24,854 bases of DNA from a virus. The stretch covers positions 1 through 24,854 of the IMG/VR virus record IMGVR_UViG_3300032163_001981; one strand, written 5' to 3'. The notes below the pieces were generated by a model that saw nothing but the letters and a program-made list of their open reading frames with translations, was not told where the DNA came from and searched no databases. The position numbers and the translations under genes are program-made. This document shows, in pieces, positions 2,597-20,968 of this stretch (its first letter is position 1; every line of letters begins with the position of its first letter).

Positions 2597-3445
2597 TCAG
2601 TAGAAGCGTGAGTAATGAAGTTCGGTTACAGAGATCGAGAAGCCAGATCCCGTGAGAGTTATTTTGAATGCGTTCGAACCTGACACGATTTTCGGCAGTA
2701 CGCCGGTGTAGTCGATCTCGACGCCGTTTTTGGTGACACGTCGGTTCTCGCCATCGATCACGATTTGATCTCCGTTCGAAAAACTGGAAGGGATGGTCAC
2801 CTTGTCGCCGTTCGTCGTGTTCTCCCAGACGATCTGCGAAAGCGTTCCTGCCGTGACTACGGTGAGATACGCGAGCGAGTCGGCTTCGGCCGTTCCGGCG
2901 TTCACGAATTCCATAGTGGTCGGCGAAACGGCGATAGGCGTCGGGACATCGGTGACCGTCCGTCCCCCGCTTCGGCCGAACGGCTGCAGGGCGACGAGTT
3001 CGACCTCATACGGGCACATCGTCATGTGATAGTGGTCGCGCTCCTGAAAAATACGGTCGAGGCCGATGGCGTAACATTCGTAGTAGCGAGAGACTCCGGC
3101 CCACGGGATCTTGAGGATACCGCCGAAGACAGCGAGATTTTTTCGAAGCGTATCCATGCGCGACTCCATGTCCGTTCGGCTTGAACCTTTGATAGTTCCC
3201 CGCAGGATGAGATGCGTTTCCCGCCAGTAAGCAGTTTCCGCATATGCGCCTTGCGCGCGCGGGTAAGCACGTTTCTGTAGGTCGAGAATGGGCGCGGAGA
3301 GCTTCACGAAACGAGTCAGAATGCTCGTATTCTGCAAACCGTAATTATTGAACGTGATCTCGTCGGTCGATGCAGGAGAGGTCGCCGAAGCTCCGTCCAA
3401 CGTGACGGTATCGAGTCTTGCGGAATCAAATTGGTAGACAGACAT
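2597..3445 (-). CDS. Distal tail (Dit-like) protein
   Basis: This 282-residue protein lies immediately downstream of the tape measure gene, the usual place for the siphovirus distal tail protein that forms a ring between the tail tube and the tip. The N-terminal half includes a segment typical of such proteins (RETHLILRGTIKG, then an alpha/beta part to about residue 150 with MCPYEVELVALQPF). The C-terminal half is beta-rich with a galectin-like feel (VWENTTNGDKVTIPSSFSNGDQ). It starts 3 nt after the TAG of the tape measure gene and has no Shine-Dalgarno sequence. The Dit assignment rests on gene order, length and general sequence character, not on a single signature motif. Confidence 0.75.
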   Translation of the reverse strand: MSVYQFDSARLDTVTLDGASATSPASTDEITFNNYGLQNTSILTRFVKLSAPILDLQKRAYPRAQGAYAETAYWRETHLILRGTIKGSSRTDMESRMDTLRKNLAVFGGILKIPWAGVSRYYECYAIGLDRIFQERDHYHMTMCPYEVELVALQPFGRSGGRTVTDVPTPIAVSPTTMEFVNAGTAEADSLAYLTVVTAGTLSQIVWENTTNGDKVTIPSSFSNGDQIVIDGENRRVTKNGVEIDYTGVLPKIVSGSNAFKITLTGSGFSISVTELHYSRFY

Positions 3446-3448
3446 AAG

Positions 3449-5767
3449 CTACATTTGGGCGGCTAGGCCGAAACGATTACCTTGGAGCACCTTGGCGAGT
3501 TCCTTGGCAACGGTACGCGCAAGCCTTGATTCGTCGGCCTCGTTTGAGATATTCAAAACCGCGCCTTCCATGATGGAGACGGAAATCGGCTGTCCGCCGA
3601 GGGCAGATCCCGAGCGATTCAATGGAATAACGGCCTCTGGTCCCCTTTCGCCGATGAGAGCGATGGTTGGGCGGGTCACGATGCCGCCCGCAGCAAGATG
3701 GGGAATCACGGCCGCACTCCCACTCGGAGATGACGTGATAGCGCTCCGAGCGGCTTGGATGGCCTTCAGGGTCGCCTCGGCCTGATCCTGAATGGCTTTG
3801 AGTTCCGATTGTTTGATCTTGGATTCAGCGATGAGTTTGTCGTACCCCGTTTTGTATTCCTTTAAGAGTTCATCAAAACGCCGGACGGTCTCTTCCTTGA
3901 GTCGTTCGGTTTGTTTTATATATTCGTCTTCCTCTTCTTGCATCCGCTCCTTGAGCGTGACCATCTTCTCGTCGAACGCCTGCTGGTCGGCGAGGATCTC
4001 GGCCCCGTGTTTCAGACGCAAGCGCTCGAGATCGGTCGTGGCACGATATTTTTCTGCATCCGCCTTAAGCGTTGCGTATTGGTCGACGATAGCCTGTTCC
4101 GCATCGAGCTGTTTCTTGGTTTCATTTACCCTTCCTTCGAGCTCGGCACGCCGATCCGGATCGTCTGCTGTCTGTAGATCTTTTTGCAGGCTCGCAAATT
4201 CCTTTTGGGCTTCCGTCAGCTTGTCCTGGTGCGCCATGAACAGATCGAGGCGCTGATCTTGGTATTGCTTCTCTCTGTCGGCTGTCGACTTCGCAAAATC
4301 CTCCTGGAGATGTGACATCTCGGCGTTGATCTCGGCAACCTTCTTTCGGTGGTCGTCCAATCGGTCGTTGGACTTCTGCGTGTAGTCACGGATGGCGTCG
4401 GTGAGTTTGGATTGGGTTTCTACGACCGCATCCTTGAACTTGCCGAGCGATTCCTTGGCCTTGTCAGCCGCTTTGGCTGTTCCGCCGCCCACGGCATCCA
4501 TAATCTGTCGTGCCACATTCGGTGCGGCGTTCTCGATGGGCTTGAAGCCTTGCTGTACCACACCCTCCTTCATCGCCTGGCCGGCTTGGATGAAAGCGTA
4601 GTCCATGTCGGTCGCAAAAGAGCCGAGAGTCTTGTTGACCTGCTTCACCGTCGCATTGAATCCGGAGAGATCAAAAGCAGAGACGGCTTTTGCCAGAGAA
4701 TCCTTCGCACCGGCAAAGTCCCCTGTCATCGCCTTGGCCAAGGCTGCAAAGACATTCTGTCCGATCTCCCCGATGCGTTTAAAAGATTTAGCGACATCGG
4801 ACGCGAAGGCGACCGCTTCAATCGCTCCCCCTACGAGCAACGTGCCGAGCGAAAGCACGGCATACGCTAAACCCTTCAGGACGTAGCCGGCTGCCTTCGC
4901 GCCAGAGGCGAGGCTATAGAAGCTGCGGGACCAGCCATCATTCTTGGTCGTAGCCTCCTGCGCTCCTTTGGCGGCACTCAAGGCATCATTCACGAAAAGA
5001 TTGAGCGCAGGCAGTACCGCCTTGCCGATATTCTCCTGCACTTCTCCGAGCGCATTATTGAGCTGCTTTATTTTTCCTTGATAGGTATTCGCGGCAGCTG
5101 CGGCAGAGCCTCCGAACTCGCGGTTCAATTCCTGCAGGATGATCTTCTGCGCTTCCATGGTCTTTCCAGTCTCGACCAAGGTTTCAATTTGCTTCTTCTG
5201 CTGGTCTGTAAAGGAAACGCCGACACGGGTGAGAGCGGTAAGACCATCAATCGGATTGTTCAGTGCTTTGCCGAGCTGGACCACGGAAGACTTCAGATCC
5301 TGCCCCATGACGGTGCTGACGTTCAAAGCCGCTTGGATCGCATCTGGAAAAACATCCTTCGTGACTTTGGTGAAAGTCAGCATCAGGTTCTCAGCCGAAA
5401 GCACCTCGTCGTCCGTGAAGGTCGAGAGGTTGGCCATCTTGCTTGCGAGATCGTTTGCCATCTCTCCCGTGACCCCGGCCGCCATTCCCGTGGATTGCAA
5501 TACGGCCGCAAGCTGGGCTTGGCCGGCTTCCGCACTGCCGGCAGCCTCAAGAGTGCCCTTCAGGAAATTCCCCATGGCGTTGAAAGCGGAACTCGCAGCG
5601 TTCGCGGCAAGGTTCCCCAATCCGATGGCTCCGACCAGTTTCCCGAAACCGACTCCCGACGTGTTGGTAGCGGAAGACACGCCGCGCAAATCGTTTTCGA
5701 GGGACTTCAATTCGCCGGCTGCCTTGTTGGAAGCCTCAATGGCAATTTGCAGCTTAGCGTTGGCCAT
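3449..5767 (-). CDS. Tail tape measure protein
   Basis: This 772-residue protein is the longest of the tail genes and should set tail length and act in DNA ejection. Residues 80-260 match the conserved tape-measure core (FTDDEVLSAENLMLTFTKV, LGKALNNPIDGLTALTRVGVSF, YQGKIKQLNNALGEVQENIGKAVLPAL). A hydrophobic stretch at about 296-325 may cross a membrane. Residues 430-675 are a long charged coiled coil rich in K, E, Q and D. A C-terminal GERGPEAVIPL motif (707-717) is common in these proteins. The ATG at 5767 lies inside the last codons of the frameshifted tail chaperone, a 14-nt overlap. At 2.3 kb it predicts a fairly short tail, if the usual scaling of tail length with gene length holds. Confidence 0.95.
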   Translation of the reverse strand: MANAKLQIAIEASNKAAGELKSLENDLRGVSSATNTSGVGFGKLVGAIGLGNLAANAASSAFNAMGNFLKGTLEAAGSAEAGQAQLAAVLQSTGMAAGVTGEMANDLASKMANLSTFTDDEVLSAENLMLTFTKVTKDVFPDAIQAALNVSTVMGQDLKSSVVQLGKALNNPIDGLTALTRVGVSFTDQQKKQIETLVETGKTMEAQKIILQELNREFGGSAAAAANTYQGKIKQLNNALGEVQENIGKAVLPALNLFVNDALSAAKGAQEATTKNDGWSRSFYSLASGAKAAGYVLKGLAYAVLSLGTLLVGGAIEAVAFASDVAKSFKRIGEIGQNVFAALAKAMTGDFAGAKDSLAKAVSAFDLSGFNATVKQVNKTLGSFATDMDYAFIQAGQAMKEGVVQQGFKPIENAAPNVARQIMDAVGGGTAKAADKAKESLGKFKDAVVETQSKLTDAIRDYTQKSNDRLDDHRKKVAEINAEMSHLQEDFAKSTADREKQYQDQRLDLFMAHQDKLTEAQKEFASLQKDLQTADDPDRRAELEGRVNETKKQLDAEQAIVDQYATLKADAEKYRATTDLERLRLKHGAEILADQQAFDEKMVTLKERMQEEEDEYIKQTERLKEETVRRFDELLKEYKTGYDKLIAESKIKQSELKAIQDQAEATLKAIQAARSAITSSPSGSAAVIPHLAAGGIVTRPTIALIGERGPEAVIPLNRSGSALGGQPISVSIMEGAVLNISNEADESRLARTVAKELAKVLQGNRFGLAAQM

Positions 5768-6250
5768 GGGTGAGAATGTAGAGAAAATCGTCGATCACGT
5801 CGGAGGGCGTTCGTTCCAGTTCCTCGTAACTCCAGCCGAATACGCGGCAGAGGGCGAAGGCATCAAGCCTCCAGTGCGCCGACGCCAGATCTTCGGGATC
5901 CAGTAAAAGCGAAGAACCCCGTCCTTCGACGAGGTTCTCTAACGCCCTTTTGGGCCGTCTTCTTTGGAACGGAAACCGACCGCCTGCAGGGCAAGGTCGA
6001 GAAGCTTCTCCCCTTCCTCGGCGGTGAGATTGGTTTCAAGCGACTCCTTCGTGACAGGATCACTGAAAGACCATGCCACGAGAAACTTAACGAGCAGGTC
6101 GGCTGACCAGTCGTTCAGGGCACGAGGATCTACCGATTCTCCATCCTTCGCGCGGGCAAACGGGCTAGCTTCTTGTGCCCGGCGGCGTTCGCCCCAGCTG
6201 AATGAATCTTTGACGTCGGCCCATTGGGCGTTTGAGAGGGTGATTTTCAT
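5754..6250 (-). CDS. Tail assembly chaperone, long form made by -1 frameshift (GT-type)
   Basis: Ribosomes that slip back one base at the heptamer C CCA AAA (5948-5954) after residue 101 bypass the TAG at 5939 and add 64 residues, giving a 165-residue product. The added part reads RALENLVEGR, then a helical segment with LCRVFGWSYEEL and SDVIDDFLYIL, and ends 14 nt inside the tape measure gene. In many siphoviruses (lambda G and GT are the model) the short form and the frameshifted form together chaperone the tape measure protein. The location, lengths and short C-terminal domain all fit. I reconstructed the -1 frame by hand from the sequence, and it stays open across the whole gap. Confidence 0.85.
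5913..5954 (-). promoter_or_regulatory. Programmed -1 ribosomal frameshift signal
   Basis: On the minus strand the slippery heptamer CCCAAAA (5948-5954) is in the correct phase (C CCA AAA). It is followed by a 9-nt spacer that contains the zero-frame TAG (5939-5941). Next comes a perfect hairpin (5913-5938): an 11-bp stem AGAACCTCGTC paired with GACGGGGTTCT (one G-T pair) and a GAAG loop. All three parts match the classical X XXY YYZ plus downstream stimulator arrangement. Confidence 0.88.
5939..6250 (-). CDS. Tail assembly chaperone, short form (G-type)
   Basis: The unshifted frame encodes 103 residues. It has no catalytic motif and is mostly helical and charged (NDWSADLLVKFLVAW, TAEEGEKLLDLALQAVGF). 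It sits directly upstream of the tape measure gene, the canonical position of lambda-G-like tail chaperones, and is the first minus-strand gene after the plus-strand zeta cassette. Its ATG is preceded by CCAT and no Shine-Dalgarno sequence. A terminator that should act on both strands lies upstream at 7240-7268, so this gene probably heads a new transcript; a recurring upstream motif is present at 6261-6300. The chaperone role is inferred from position and from the frameshift signal at its end. Confidence 0.85.
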   Translation of the reverse strand: MKITLSNAQWADVKDSFSWGERRRAQEASPFARAKDGESVDPRALNDWSADLLVKFLVAWSFSDPVTKESLETNLTAEEGEKLLDLALQAVGFRSKEDGPKGR

Positions 6251-6327
6251 ATGGGATCACGATAACGAAAACAATGAGCCGAAAGGCTCCCTTGTCCACA
6301 AGCAATCTTTGCGATAAGTTACTGGTC
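6251..6327. promoter_or_regulatory. Divergent intergenic region between zeta cassette and tail operon
   Basis: These 77 bp separate two genes that point away from each other, so promoters for both are expected here. The minus strand carries the recurring three-part motif: TGTGGA at 6295-6300, TTTCGG at 6279-6284 and TTATC at 6261-6265, ending about 10 nt before the tail chaperone ATG. The first element lies in an inverted repeat CTTGT-CC-ACAAG (6291-6302), a possible operator. On the plus strand a weak GATAAG (6313-6318) lies about 9 nt before the kinase ATG. A hairpin GAGCC-GAAA-GGCTC is at 6276-6289. Promoter function is inferred. Confidence 0.45.
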
Positions 6328-7071
6328 ATGGATGCAAGTAAAACAACCTCTTCTTTTCCTCCGGATTTACAAAAAGTCTCGGACGATGCTTGTGATTTTG
6401 TCAGGGCAAATAAGAAAGAGATCATCAAAAAGTTTGCCGGTGATAGCTTCCCGTCCGTCGAGCACCCGATTTCCATTTTTATGGCAGGATCGCCTGGCGC
6501 TGGAAAAACCGAATTTTCAAAATCTTTGATCCAGACATTGCAAAGCCAGATGAAAGCTGAACCCATCGTCAGGATTGATGGCGATGAAATTCGCGGTACG
6601 CTGCCAGGATACACGGGTGCGAATTCGTATCTGTTCCAGCGCGCAATCTCAATCGGCGTAAGTAAACTTCATGACTACGTTCTAGAAAAAAGAAAAAGCT
6701 TTATTCTGGATGGAACTTTTTCACATATCGATAAGGCTCGGGAAAATATTAGCCGATCATTAAAAGTCGGTCGCAAGGTTATCGTGGTCTACGTCTATCA
6801 GGATCCGCTCATCTCCTGGAAGTTCACGCAAAAACGAGAAGCGATAGAAGGTAGGAGCATCCCGAAAAATATCTTCATCGAACAATTTTTTGCAGCCAAA
6901 GAGGTGACCCAGGCGGTTAAAGATGAGTTTGGCGGCCAGATCGAAGTCTGGCTCATTGAGAGAAACCTCGAGGAAAATTACCTCAAACGGAACGTAAATA
7001 TCAGCAAAATTGACAATCACGTCACTGTGCAGTATTCTAAAAAGCAGTTAGAGGACACCCTACCATTATGA
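6328..7071 (+). CDS. Zeta-toxin-like P-loop kinase
   Basis: This 247-residue P-loop kinase resembles zeta toxins, which phosphorylate the cell-wall precursor UDP-N-acetylglucosamine (known for the family; the substrate here is unproven). Visible motifs are Walker A GSPGAGKT (residues 54-61), the substrate-side RIDGDEIRGTLPGY (82-95), LDGTF (127-131) and a basic helix KFTQKREAIEGRSI with likely catalytic Arg. It is on the plus strand, against all neighbours, and looks more AT-rich than they do. An in-frame ATG at 6274 would add 18 residues, but that segment looks non-conserved and overlaps the shared regulatory region, so 6328 is preferred. No epsilon-type antitoxin lies upstream. A small gene overlaps its stop codon. 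Confidence 0.85.
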   Translation: MDASKTTSSFPPDLQKVSDDACDFVRANKKEIIKKFAGDSFPSVEHPISIFMAGSPGAGKTEFSKSLIQTLQSQMKAEPIVRIDGDEIRGTLPGYTGANSYLFQRAISIGVSKLHDYVLEKRKSFILDGTFSHIDKARENISRSLKVGRKVIVVYVYQDPLISWKFTQKREAIEGRSIPKNIFIEQFFAAKEVTQAVKDEFGGQIEVWLIERNLEENYLKRNVNISKIDNHVTVQYSKKQLEDTLPL

Positions 7072-7256
7072 TCAAAAAACTACTCAAACGCCTCTCCCAG
7101 AAAGGAGAGCCGGCAAAGAAACCGGATGCGTTATATCAGTTCGTGACTCACGCTGGATCGAAAGAAAACGAAAAAATCTTTCAACAGGCAGGTAAGCTAG
7201 CGAACGAAGAACAGCGCAAAATCTATTACGGAAGCGCACAAAAAAGCGAGGCATAA
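7068..7256 (+). CDS. Small basic protein coupled to the zeta-like kinase (possible antitoxin)
   Basis: This 62-residue protein starts on the ATGA that contains the kinase stop codon, so the two are translationally coupled. The N-terminus is strongly basic (MIKKLLKRLSQKGEPAKK). The rest looks helical and charged (GSKENEKIFQQAGKLANEEQRKIYYG). I do not recognise a family. It is too short and too basic to resemble the classical epsilon antitoxin, which is encoded upstream of zeta. A regulatory, neutralising or accessory role for the kinase is inferred from coupling alone. Its TAA stop lies in the loop of the bidirectional terminator that closes the cassette. Confidence 0.7.
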   Translation: MIKKLLKRLSQKGEPAKKPDALYQFVTHAGSKENEKIFQQAGKLANEEQRKIYYGSAQKSEA

Positions 7257-7328: not shown

Positions 7329-7775
7329 TCATACGATAAACGGCAATGGATCAACGTACCCCTTGAATCCGTTATCAAGTTCGTTCTGCCATCTTGGTGG
7401 CCGATATCCGAAGTGCAGATGTGGTCCGCTCGAAAAACCGGTGTTATCGGAAAGTCCGATACGCTGACCGACAGCGACCTGTGCGCCAATACCGACGTAA
7501 AATTTGGATAGATGGCCGTAGATGGTTTGCGATCCATCCGGATGTTCAAGACGGATGTATTTGCCGTATCCCCTCACGCCTTCGTCTCTCATTTCCGCAA
7601 TCCTTCCAGTTGCCGCCGCTATCACATATCGGTGTCCGAGCGGTGAGTCCAAAAAGCGGGTGCGGTAGTCGATCCCGTTATGCCCCTTCATGCCGAATTG
7701 GGCATAGACTGCGGGACGCTCCCCGAAGTGCTGTGTGATAACCACCGGATCCATTGGGTGTTTCAGGTTGGGCAT
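7329..7775 (-). CDS. M23 family (LytM-type) peptidoglycan peptidase, likely endolysin
   Basis: This 148-residue metallopeptidase consists essentially of one M23 domain and should cleave peptide cross-links in the cell wall. The zinc-site motifs are GHNGIDY (31-37; His32 and Asp36) and HLH (119-121). A conserved GHLS (87-90) supplies the catalytic His88. The N-terminal HPMDPVVITQHFGERP is typical of the family. There is no signal peptide, so release through a holin is expected; a holin-like protein is encoded about 340 bp upstream. A virion-associated role in wall penetration during infection is an alternative. A terminator-like hairpin lies just upstream of its start. Confidence 0.9.
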   Translation of the reverse strand: MPNLKHPMDPVVITQHFGERPAVYAQFGMKGHNGIDYRTRFLDSPLGHRYVIAAATGRIAEMRDEGVRGYGKYIRLEHPDGSQTIYGHLSKFYVGIGAQVAVGQRIGLSDNTGFSSGPHLHFGYRPPRWQNELDNGFKGYVDPLPFIV

Positions 7776-8446: not shown

Positions 8447-9415
8447 TCAGTAGGAGGCGACCGTGTTCCGAACGGTGCCGGTAATCATGGCCGAATCCGA
8501 TTCCGAATAGAACGCTTTGAATTTGAGTGTCTGGAGCACTACGTCTCCTTTGCCCATGGAGCGCGTGACTTCCGAGAGCAATGCCTTGGCGAGCTCGTAG
8601 CGCACGCGCGGGCTAGAAGCCGCACCGATGGTGACGGAGGCGTTCGTGAGATCGATGCGTACCGCTTGAACGGTGTTGGCCAAGAGGTTCGTCACTTGCG
8701 ATTGGTCGTCGTAGACAAGAGTGATCTCGCCTTCGACCTGGAACAGACGGTTCAGGATGTCCTGCGGATTGGCATCGCCAAGCGCCCGATCTTCTTCCAC
8801 GTTCTTCGTGACTTTCAGGCTAACCGAACGCACCTTCACTGCCGACGCGCCTGCAAGGCCCGCTAGCGAACTCGCGAAGCGAATTTCGCCATGCGTCGGC
8901 AGGAAGATGTTCTCCGCGACATAGGTCGCGGAACGCGATTGCGTCGCTCCTGTCTTGGAGCGGAACCCGAACTTGCCCATGGCGTGTTTTTCAAGCTCAA
9001 CTGCGAATTCCATGTCGGTCAGCATGGCGAGGACATAATCCTTGCCCGCATTCGCTTCTTTCAGGTGGAGCGAAAGGGATTGGTGCTGATTGGATTGCTG
9101 GACCGAATAGACGTGGTCGTAAACGCCGGTCTCGACCGTTGAATCCGCGACGGAACCGAATAAGGCGAGCATGAGCAAGCCGAAAGACTTGTCACGGATG
9201 GGGAGGGTGAAATTTCCCTCGCCGTATTTGCCGACAAGCTGCGCGTCCACGGAATCCTCGATCAAGTTCCGGCTGGACTCGTCGACCGATTGCATGATGT
9301 GCTCGTCGACCGAAACTTCAGACGGGCGGAGCCAATAGCCGGGCGCAACGGCCGTACCTCGGGAGGTTTCTTTCCCGATCCCGAGATCAATGCGCGAACC
9401 GATGAATTTTGCCAT
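8447..9415 (-). CDS. Major tail tube protein
   Basis: This 322-residue protein is probably the subunit of the non-contractile tail tube. It begins MAKFIGSRIDLGIGKETSRGT and continues with PGYWLRPSEVSVDEHI; phage tail tube proteins often start with a similar 'K(E)xxxGTA' segment. The remainder is beta-rich without enzyme motifs and contains EGEITLVYDDQSQVTNLLA in the C-terminal third. It lies downstream of the connector and terminator genes and upstream of the tail chaperone and tape measure genes, the standard position. It starts 3 nt after the TAA of the 68-residue gene (TAACCTATG). The assignment is by position and general character. Confidence 0.8.
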   Translation of the reverse strand: MAKFIGSRIDLGIGKETSRGTAVAPGYWLRPSEVSVDEHIMQSVDESSRNLIEDSVDAQLVGKYGEGNFTLPIRDKSFGLLMLALFGSVADSTVETGVYDHVYSVQQSNQHQSLSLHLKEANAGKDYVLAMLTDMEFAVELEKHAMGKFGFRSKTGATQSRSATYVAENIFLPTHGEIRFASSLAGLAGASAVKVRSVSLKVTKNVEEDRALGDANPQDILNRLFQVEGEITLVYDDQSQVTNLLANTVQAVRIDLTNASVTIGAASSPRVRYELAKALLSEVTRSMGKGDVVLQTLKFKAFYSESDSAMITGTVRNTVASY

Positions 9416-19148: not shown

Positions 19149-20212
19149 AGATTTTTGAACATCGTTCTGACAAGCTCCTCGACCACACGACTCACCACTC
19201 CGTTGCCGCACATTTTATATCGCTGGGTATCGCTCATCTCGACCTCCCTGCCTAATTCATCTATTCCCCACCTCGTCCATTCGTCCGACCAGGACATGAG
19301 ACGTTCGCATTCGAGGGGAGTGAGGCGTCTGACACGGATGCCGTCGGTGACTCCGGATACCTCGGCCGTCCGATGGCTGTACCCTTTTGCGTATCGTGCT
19401 TGAATCGTTCGTGCGGCAGTCGTGAGCTTGGGATTCTTGGTACTGAGATCGATGAACGCGACGCCTCCGGTATTCGCCCCATCGATTGTGAAAGCGTAGT
19501 CACCATCAATCTTTTTCTGGTTGCGGTTCAGATACTTGAGCGGACACCGTATCGCGTAGCATCCCGTCTTCGCGCCTATCCCTCCTCCGTTCGCCTTAAG
19601 CGTCCGAGCGACGCCATGCTCGGAGTAGACGCGTTCAGCTTGAGCGACCCGAGACGTGATTTCGCTAAGATGCGTTTCAGTACCTTGTGGCTCAAAAAAT
19701 ATTTCTCTGGCACGTTCGCCTCGAGTACCGAAGATAAAGACGCGTTCACGGTTTTGAGGCACACTGAAGTCTCTTGCGTTGAGAATTTGCCACGAGAGAG
19801 CGTAGCCTTCTTCGGCCAGCGAATTGAGAATGACGGCGAAGTCTCGCCCGCCGTTCGATGACAGAGCGCCTTTAACGTTTTCCCAGATGAAATGGCGTGG
19901 CTTTTTTTCGTGCAGCGTACGGACGTACTCGGCGAACAGACCGGACCTTTCACCTTCAAGCCCGACGCGTTTTCCAGCGATGGACAGGTCTTGGCATGGA
20001 CTGCCTCCGACGAGAAGGTCAAAATCGGGAACTGCCGACCAATCGATTTTCGTGATGTCTCCATAGTTTTTGGTTTCAGGGAATCTGCGCTTGAGCACGG
20101 CGGATGCGTATTTATCGATCTCGCTCATACCGACGCACTTCGAGCGCGGTGATGCAGTACGAATGCCAAGCTCGAAACCGCCGACGCCTGTGAATAGCGA
20201 GAAATACCTCAT
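19145..20212 (-). CDS. DNA (cytosine-5) methyltransferase
   Basis: This 355-residue enzyme transfers a methyl group from S-adenosylmethionine to C5 of cytosine. Family motifs appear in order: I, SLFTGVGGFELGI (5-17); IV, GGSPCQDLS with catalytic Cys73; VI, ENVKG (111-115); VIII, QNRERVFIFG (153-162); IX, RRLTPLECERLM (295-306); X, CGNGVV (335-340). Residues 170-290 form the target-recognition region. The start is the ATG at 20212, which overlaps the VRR-NUC stop as ATGA; a longer reading would overlap that gene. It is followed by a second methyltransferase with the same overlap. Protection of phage DNA from restriction is the likely role. Confidence 0.95.
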   Translation of the reverse strand: MRYFSLFTGVGGFELGIRTASPRSKCVGMSEIDKYASAVLKRRFPETKNYGDITKIDWSAVPDFDLLVGGSPCQDLSIAGKRVGLEGERSGLFAEYVRTLHEKKPRHFIWENVKGALSSNGGRDFAVILNSLAEEGYALSWQILNARDFSVPQNRERVFIFGTRGERAREIFFEPQGTETHLSEITSRVAQAERVYSEHGVARTLKANGGGIGAKTGCYAIRCPLKYLNRNQKKIDGDYAFTIDGANTGGVAFIDLSTKNPKLTTAARTIQARYAKGYSHRTAEVSGVTDGIRVRRLTPLECERLMSWSDEWTRWGIDELGREVEMSDTQRYKMCGNGVVSRVVEELVRTMFKNL

Positions 20213-20569: not shown

Positions 20570-20968
20570 TTATCCACGCTTCATTCGAAGTACGGGCGGT
20601 TGAGGTGGCGGTTTGTCGATGTACACCAGGACGGCTTTTGGGACTTCGTATCCCCGATCGACGATATCCGAGAGCCTGCCTGCGAGCGCATCGGCCGTGG
20701 TAAGCCACTGGTCGGCCGATAGCTCGAGCTCCTGCGATTTGCAGGCGAGATACCGTTCGTATGCCTCATTGAGAGACCGGACGAGGCTTTCGTTTCGTGT
20801 CGGAATATCTTCAATCCACCAGATTCGCTTTCCCGCCCATTTGGCGAGTTCCGCAAGAGAGACGTGAATGGAACCTCGCCTGCGACTGAGCAGGTAGGCG
20901 TGGCCATCTGAACCCATGACGAGGATCGAGAGAGCGTCGACTTTCTGAAGGTTGCGTTGGGCTATCAT
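20570..20968 (-). CDS. Protein of unknown function
   Basis: This 132-residue protein has an N-terminal part with beta-like segments (VDALSILVMGSDGHAYLLSRRR), a helical middle (ELAKWAGKRIWWIEDIP, SLVRSLNEAYERYLACKSQELE) and a Pro-rich basic end (KPPPQPPVLRMKRG). No motif was recognised. Its ATG follows the stop of the 58-residue gene with TGAACCATG. It lies at the boundary of the replication and DNA-modification genes. The TAA stop is part of GTGGATAACC, close to the TGTGGA motif seen elsewhere but not an exact match. Confidence 0.75.
   Translation of the reverse strand: MIAQRNLQKVDALSILVMGSDGHAYLLSRRRGSIHVSLAELAKWAGKRIWWIEDIPTRNESLVRSLNEAYERYLACKSQELELSADQWLTTADALAGRLSDIVDRGYEVPKAVLVYIDKPPPQPPVLRMKRG

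Follow-up and report, generated by a model that had tools for sequence, protein, structure and literature searches.

Does the tail assembly chaperone gene of this phage end at its stop codon, or is it also read, after a backward slip of the ribosome, into a longer protein that reaches the tape measure gene? The window analysed here is a stretch of 24,854 nt from IMG/VR that belongs to a tailed phage; its minus strand encodes portal, capsid, tube, tape measure and Dit proteins. We find that programmed -1 ribosomal frameshifting of the lambda G/GT type very probably makes both a short and a long tail chaperone. This reading draws on the signal itself, the open -1 frame, the homology of the extension, its conservation in two relatives (L021 and L023 below) and the constraint on the RNA-bearing stretch. 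The mechanism is the known one, as in lambda and many long-tailed phages, rather than a new one, and the result changes annotation more than understanding.

Tail gene order and the chaperone gene

The features on which the argument turns are the following.

8447–9415, minus strand: tail tube protein (Phage_tube_2, 5.5e-17; phrog_290)
5939–6250, minus strand: zero-frame tail assembly chaperone (G-type, short form), 103 aa, assigned by position and weak, sub-threshold chaperone-family matches
5948–5954, minus strand: slippery heptamer CCCAAAA, read C CCA AAA, in phase with the zero frame and identical in L021 and L023
5939–5947, minus strand: 9-nt spacer that includes the zero-frame stop TAG (5941–5939), from reading the sequence
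5913–5938, minus strand: putative stimulatory hairpin, stem 5938–5928/5923–5913, loop GAAG 5927–5924 (RNAfold)
5754–5948, minus strand: -1-frame (T-type) extension, 64 aa plus TAA (5756–5754), with a PHROG 9001 match (1.9e-5) and Andromedavirus-like homologues
3449–5767, minus strand: tape measure protein, 772 aa (phrog_27166, 4.8e-34; Pfam TMP_2)

The chaperone gene (5939–6250, with its extension to 5754) lies directly upstream of the tape measure gene, which starts at 5767 and shares its first 14 nt with the end of the extension. A preliminary description of this DNA had the -1 frame open to 5754, with a 64-residue extension and a 165-residue fusion, and our recomputation returns the same values (101 + 64 = 165 aa). 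The tail tube protein is the partner expected for the T part of the fusion. A blastn search with positions 3000–7000 found no match in the phage collection; with the frameshift, the tail region of an uncultured lineage that has no DNA-level match there would gain a long chaperone form.

The identity of the zero-frame protein rests on gene order and on several weak matches that point to tail chaperones, namely Pfam Phage_TAC_19 for the window (0.13) and NCBIfam chaperone G (0.14) and PHROG 15027 (0.047) for L023. A tblastn search with this protein gave only noise (E of at least 0.5), its profile had no match among PDB sequences, and comparison with the profile of Andromedavirus-like zero-frame proteins was not convincing (probability 2.9%). 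The three-sequence AlphaFold model is all-helical (pLDDT 70), and Foldseek returned no match to it at E <= 0.001. In a second structure comparison the best row, within the noise of the tool, is 3klu (Z 4.0, rmsd 4.3, 73 aligned), B. subtilis YqbN, which we take to be an XkdN-type chaperone.

The region between the lysis gene and the chaperone gene is a variable slot. In the window (6274–7256, plus strand) it is occupied by a zeta-toxin-family gene (Pfam, 1.3e-40) together with a 62-aa ORF on the opposite strand, and in L021 (18844–19735) by a metallopeptidase-like gene (PADLOC capP, 1.6e-28) together with a 151-aa ORF; in L023 (2893–3000) the neighbours are only about 108 nt apart. The lysis gene itself also differs: an M23-type endopeptidase in the window (7329–7775), an endolysin of another family in L021 (18236–18805; phrog_435, 3.3e-23) and a 189-aa ORF resembling the L021 endolysin in L023 (2323–2892). 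A pattern scan marks a terminator-like hairpin just upstream of the chaperone start (6289–6276, minus strand), and a different one is seen by eye at the equivalent place in L021 (about 19745–19775). Given these upstream hairpins, the block of chaperone and tape measure genes may have its own transcription.

The slippery heptamer and the hairpin behind it

The chaperone gene ends in ...GGC CCA AAA GGG CGT TAG, so that two sense codons (GGG CGT) separate the heptamer from the stop. The in-phase CCCAAAA, the 9-nt spacer and the GAAG loop all lie where the preliminary description had placed them. Its "perfect" 11-bp stem is slightly overstated: eleven pairs are present, and one of them is U·G. RNAfold allows an optional twelfth pair, G·U at 5939/5912, which uses the G of the stop codon, and folds 38 nt into 12 pairs at -19.8 kcal/mol (z = -4.1 against dinucleotide shuffles). 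As only 21 of the 24,816 overlapping 38-nt minus-strand segments of this phage fold as well, the earlier wording "unusually perfect" is fair for this phage.

A working rule in PMC4066793 places a stimulatory hairpin 4–10 nt after the motif, with an unfolding energy of at least 7.6 kcal/mol. The window hairpin begins 8 nt after the heptamer (-19.1), and those of L021 and L023 begin 6 nt after it (-18.5). The same paper prefers a G-C first pair, which the stem in the window has only when its initial one or two weak pairs are omitted. Of the 64 heptamers compared there in E. coli, C_CC.A_AA.G scored highest (54% when combined with a strong pseudoknot), and motifs of the type Y_YY.A_AA.R count as shifty exceptions (PMC4066793); the heptamer here is C_CC.A_AA.A. 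We found no Shine-Dalgarno-like stimulator 6–17 nt upstream in the window, L021 or L023, and our literature search found no paper on CCCAAAA in phage tail frameshifting. A small competing hairpin over the heptamer (GCCC AAAA GGGC), noticed by eye in the window, was rejected, as it is not kept in L021 and L023.

According to this arrangement, most ribosomes would reach the TAG of the chaperone gene and release the 103-aa form. The hairpin would pause some of them with CCA and AAA in the P and A sites, and the paused ribosomes would move back by one base to CCC AAA and go on in the -1 frame, giving the 165-aa fusion. By analogy with lambda, the short form may coat the tape measure protein, the C-terminal domain of the rarer long form may recruit the tail tube subunit, and both forms would leave before the tail is completed. 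That slippage occurs, its rate and the roles of both forms are what we infer.

How often such an arrangement would be met by chance depends on the part considered. When the codons of the chaperone gene are shuffled, an in-phase XXXYYYZ heptamer appears anywhere in 29.5% of cases and in the last 10 codons in 3.0%. In a comparison of 34 minus-strand reading frames, with gene ends placed manually and two entries lacking a terminal stop, only the chaperone gene carries a heptamer within 10 codons of its stop. Taken by itself, the heptamer is modestly unlikely. In 14 of the 34 frames the -1 frame runs at least 61 codons past the stop; such runs are common in this genome because neighbouring genes overlap, and an open -1 frame alone is therefore weak evidence. 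The case thus rests on homology and conservation. A second in-phase CCCAAAA in the window, in the frame at 20570–20968 (minus strand), lies 23 codons before the stop, and the -1 frame there passes the stop by about 14 codons; among the 34 frames no other heptamer besides that of the chaperone gene has a -1 frame reaching beyond the stop, and it is probably a chance occurrence.

The -1-frame extension and its close relatives

Scanned alone, the extension matches PHROG 9001, "tail assembly chaperone" (1.9e-5), as do the extensions of L021 (1.8e-3) and L023 (5.5e-4). A tblastn search of phage records at a loose limit returned 27 records, 20 of which are Bacillus phages (best E 3e-3; several reach about 44% identity over 41 residues); the remaining seven, with E of at least 2, are noise. 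A profile comparison of the window group with nine Andromedavirus-like extensions gives a probability of 96.6 (E 5.6e-10, 38 columns). The FGW-containing tail, described earlier as in keeping with T-type extensions, is thus homologous to the Andromedavirus-like -1 extension and to PHROG 9001. Viral contigs were also scanned with single sequences as queries, and neither the extension nor the zero-frame protein nor the tube protein gave a match.

Two close relatives were found. L021 was recovered by a portal search (portal 64%, chaperone 78% and extension 59% identical), and L024, which is the same contig, is not counted again. L023 was recovered by the chaperone profile and is probably a prophage, since it lies in a 1.5-Mb MAG contig. 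The two are 87% identical to each other and therefore not fully independent. In both, CCCAAAA is in phase, TAG is the third codon past it, and the -1 frame is open for an extension of 65 residues (59–61% identical to that of the window). Neither has a stop codon in this frame, and both keep the heptamer unchanged and the hairpin with a bulge, in agreement with the frameshift proposed in the preliminary description.

The hairpin of L021 and L023 retains the eight loop-side pairs of the window, followed by a 3-nt bulge and 5–6 further pairs (-18.5 kcal/mol). Nine of the 11 stem pairs hold in all three phages, two of these nine through a one-sided change; the remaining two break in both relatives, where the outer stem is re-formed with the bulge. 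No two-sided compensatory change is seen in the stem among the three sequences, which are few for such a test.

Read in the -1 frame, the extensions of L021 and L023 differ by 2 nonsynonymous and 13 synonymous changes (pN/pS 0.05), compared with ratios of 0.97 and 2.22 for the same stretch in the other frames. The ratio is 0.49 between the window and L021 and 0.44 between the window and L023. Judged by these comparisons, the -1 frame is open and under protein-level selection.

A further constraint is seen on the stretch that carries the RNA element. Between L021 and L023, one of 25 third positions is changed from the end of the heptamer through the hairpin region, compared with 9 of 35 elsewhere in the extension and with 221 of 649 in the tape measure gene (1/25 versus 221/649, Fisher P 8e-4). 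An identical run of 72 nt starts 3 nt past the heptamer and spans the spacer and hairpin. No identical run in the 2,447 aligned nt is longer, and a run of at least 72 nt arises anywhere in 0.5% of simulations with codon-position rates. A second run of equal length lies at the start of the tape measure gene, so that low divergence is not unique to the signal. When synonymous codons were redrawn, a hairpin as stable as the real one was obtained in none of 2,000 cases for the window, in 3.2% for L021 and in 1.5% for L023.

Other loci, alternative readings and lambda

The Andromedavirus-like loci comprise 8 of the 20 Bacillus phages found by tblastn and a ninth Bacillus phage found via its tape measure protein. 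At each of these loci, the extension segment is flanked by the preceding gene and the tape measure gene and lies in the -1 frame of the preceding gene, and an in-phase A AAA AAA or A AAA AAG lies 3–4 codons before the end of the first gene. As in the window, their gp23/gp24-type pair (PHROG 9046 and PHROG 9001) includes a homologous -1 extension with a (Y/F)xLC(K/R)xFGW-type motif, and the genes are ordered tube, chaperone, extension, tape measure; the match in gene order extends to Andromeda because its tube protein and that of the window both belong to PHROG 290. These phages differ from the window in their heptamer (AAAAAAA or AAAAAAG rather than CCCAAAA), in a longer extension with a basic tail (82–85 aa versus 64 aa) and in their variable downstream hairpins, and the records that we opened annotate two separate genes. 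The frameshift would thus survive a change of heptamer, with the extension still recognisable. This suggests that the separately annotated gp23/gp24-type genes of Andromedavirus (L006–L013, L017) are one frameshifted gene. A literature search found no paper on a frameshift in Bacillus pumilus phage Andromeda.

In a wider set of 20 loci, the window included, where the gene before the tape measure gene was taken as the preceding gene, 17 have an in-phase heptamer that starts within six codons of the gene end (stop counted). The exceptions are L002, with a heptamer 18 codons upstream, and L018 (annotated as a joined product) and L005, which have none. Rhodobacter phage RcCronus resembles the window in that a frameshifted chaperone, whose annotation is a joined product, immediately precedes a related tape measure gene; unlike the window, it has the heptamer GGGAAAC and an extension of just 46 aa that is not visibly similar. 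Among 13 further loci (L025–L037), 10 have a heptamer within five codons of the stop, and L031 has TTTTTTA 42 codons before it; these counts are not independent, since several of the 13 are copies of phages already included (Andromeda, Curly, Eoghan, Blastoid, Finn). L036 and L037 (2672–3147) have an FGW extension in the -1 frame and no canonical XXXYYYZ heptamer; the overlap reads CCTAAAAAAGGGGGC.

These comparisons bear on other ways to account for the locus. The hairpin might be an intrinsic transcription terminator rather than a frameshift stimulator, and the pattern scan does flag 5939–5912, with the tail CGCTTTTACT, as terminator-like. However, the hairpin falls within the -1 reading frame, and the tape measure gene follows 145 nt later on the same strand. 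The T tract is weak and displaced, and it is absent in L021 and L023 (GCTCTGCTCATA), though the hairpin persists there. Given a T tract that is not conserved and a position ahead of the tape measure gene, we reject this reading as very unlikely. A sequencing or assembly error, by which one base at the CCCAAAA run would have broken a single gene of 165 codons, could be suspected of an IMG/VR record that was probably assembled from mixed DNA. The frame nevertheless changes at the identical place in two further records, one of them an IMG/VR contig and the other a MAG contig, and isolated Bacillus phages share the arrangement with a different heptamer, which leaves an error with a negligible probability.

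It is also highly improbable that the extension is an independent gene, translated from a start of its own or through reinitiation after the TAG, as the opened Andromedavirus-like records would have it by giving the second part its own start. In the window, the -1 frame has no ATG, GTG or TTG from its opening stop codon through the FGW motif; the sole GTG past the heptamer sits behind this motif, and the nearest start-like codons are CTG, 17 and 22 codons past the heptamer. The extensions of L021 and L023 have no ATG, GTG or TTG anywhere. With no such codon ahead of the conserved motif, the extension is best reached by a shift. That shift could in principle be made by RNA polymerase instead of the ribosome, but the run CCCAAAA holds four A at most, and longer homopolymers are usually required for transcriptional slippage. 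The hairpin downstream and the constraint on third positions also fit the ribosome better. Polymerase slippage, a known alternative for frame transitions (PMC5009743), is extremely unlikely to give the long form here.

Ribosomal frameshifting is thus the preferred reading, and lambda is its model. Frameshifts in tail genes were reportedly dealt with in a 2004 survey. The lambda heptamer is GGGAAAG; the window differs from lambda in its CCCAAAA, in the strong hairpin right after the stop and in a tail tube gene set apart by lysis genes and the zeta-toxin gene. It resembles lambda gpG/gpGT, as described in PMC5009743, in the position upstream of the tape measure gene, the in-phase heptamer near the stop and the -1 extension, and a short and a long form are likewise implied. 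The lambda ratio of gpG to gpGT is about 30:1, with the G part binding the tape measure protein and the tube subunit bound through the T part (PMC5009743). One could speculate that CCCAAAA and the very stable hairpin set the long-form fraction far above the roughly 1 in 30 of lambda, with the unusually conserved 72 nt past the heptamer as a tuned RNA element; we consider this unlikely, and if it held, tail assembly would run on a different chaperone stoichiometry.
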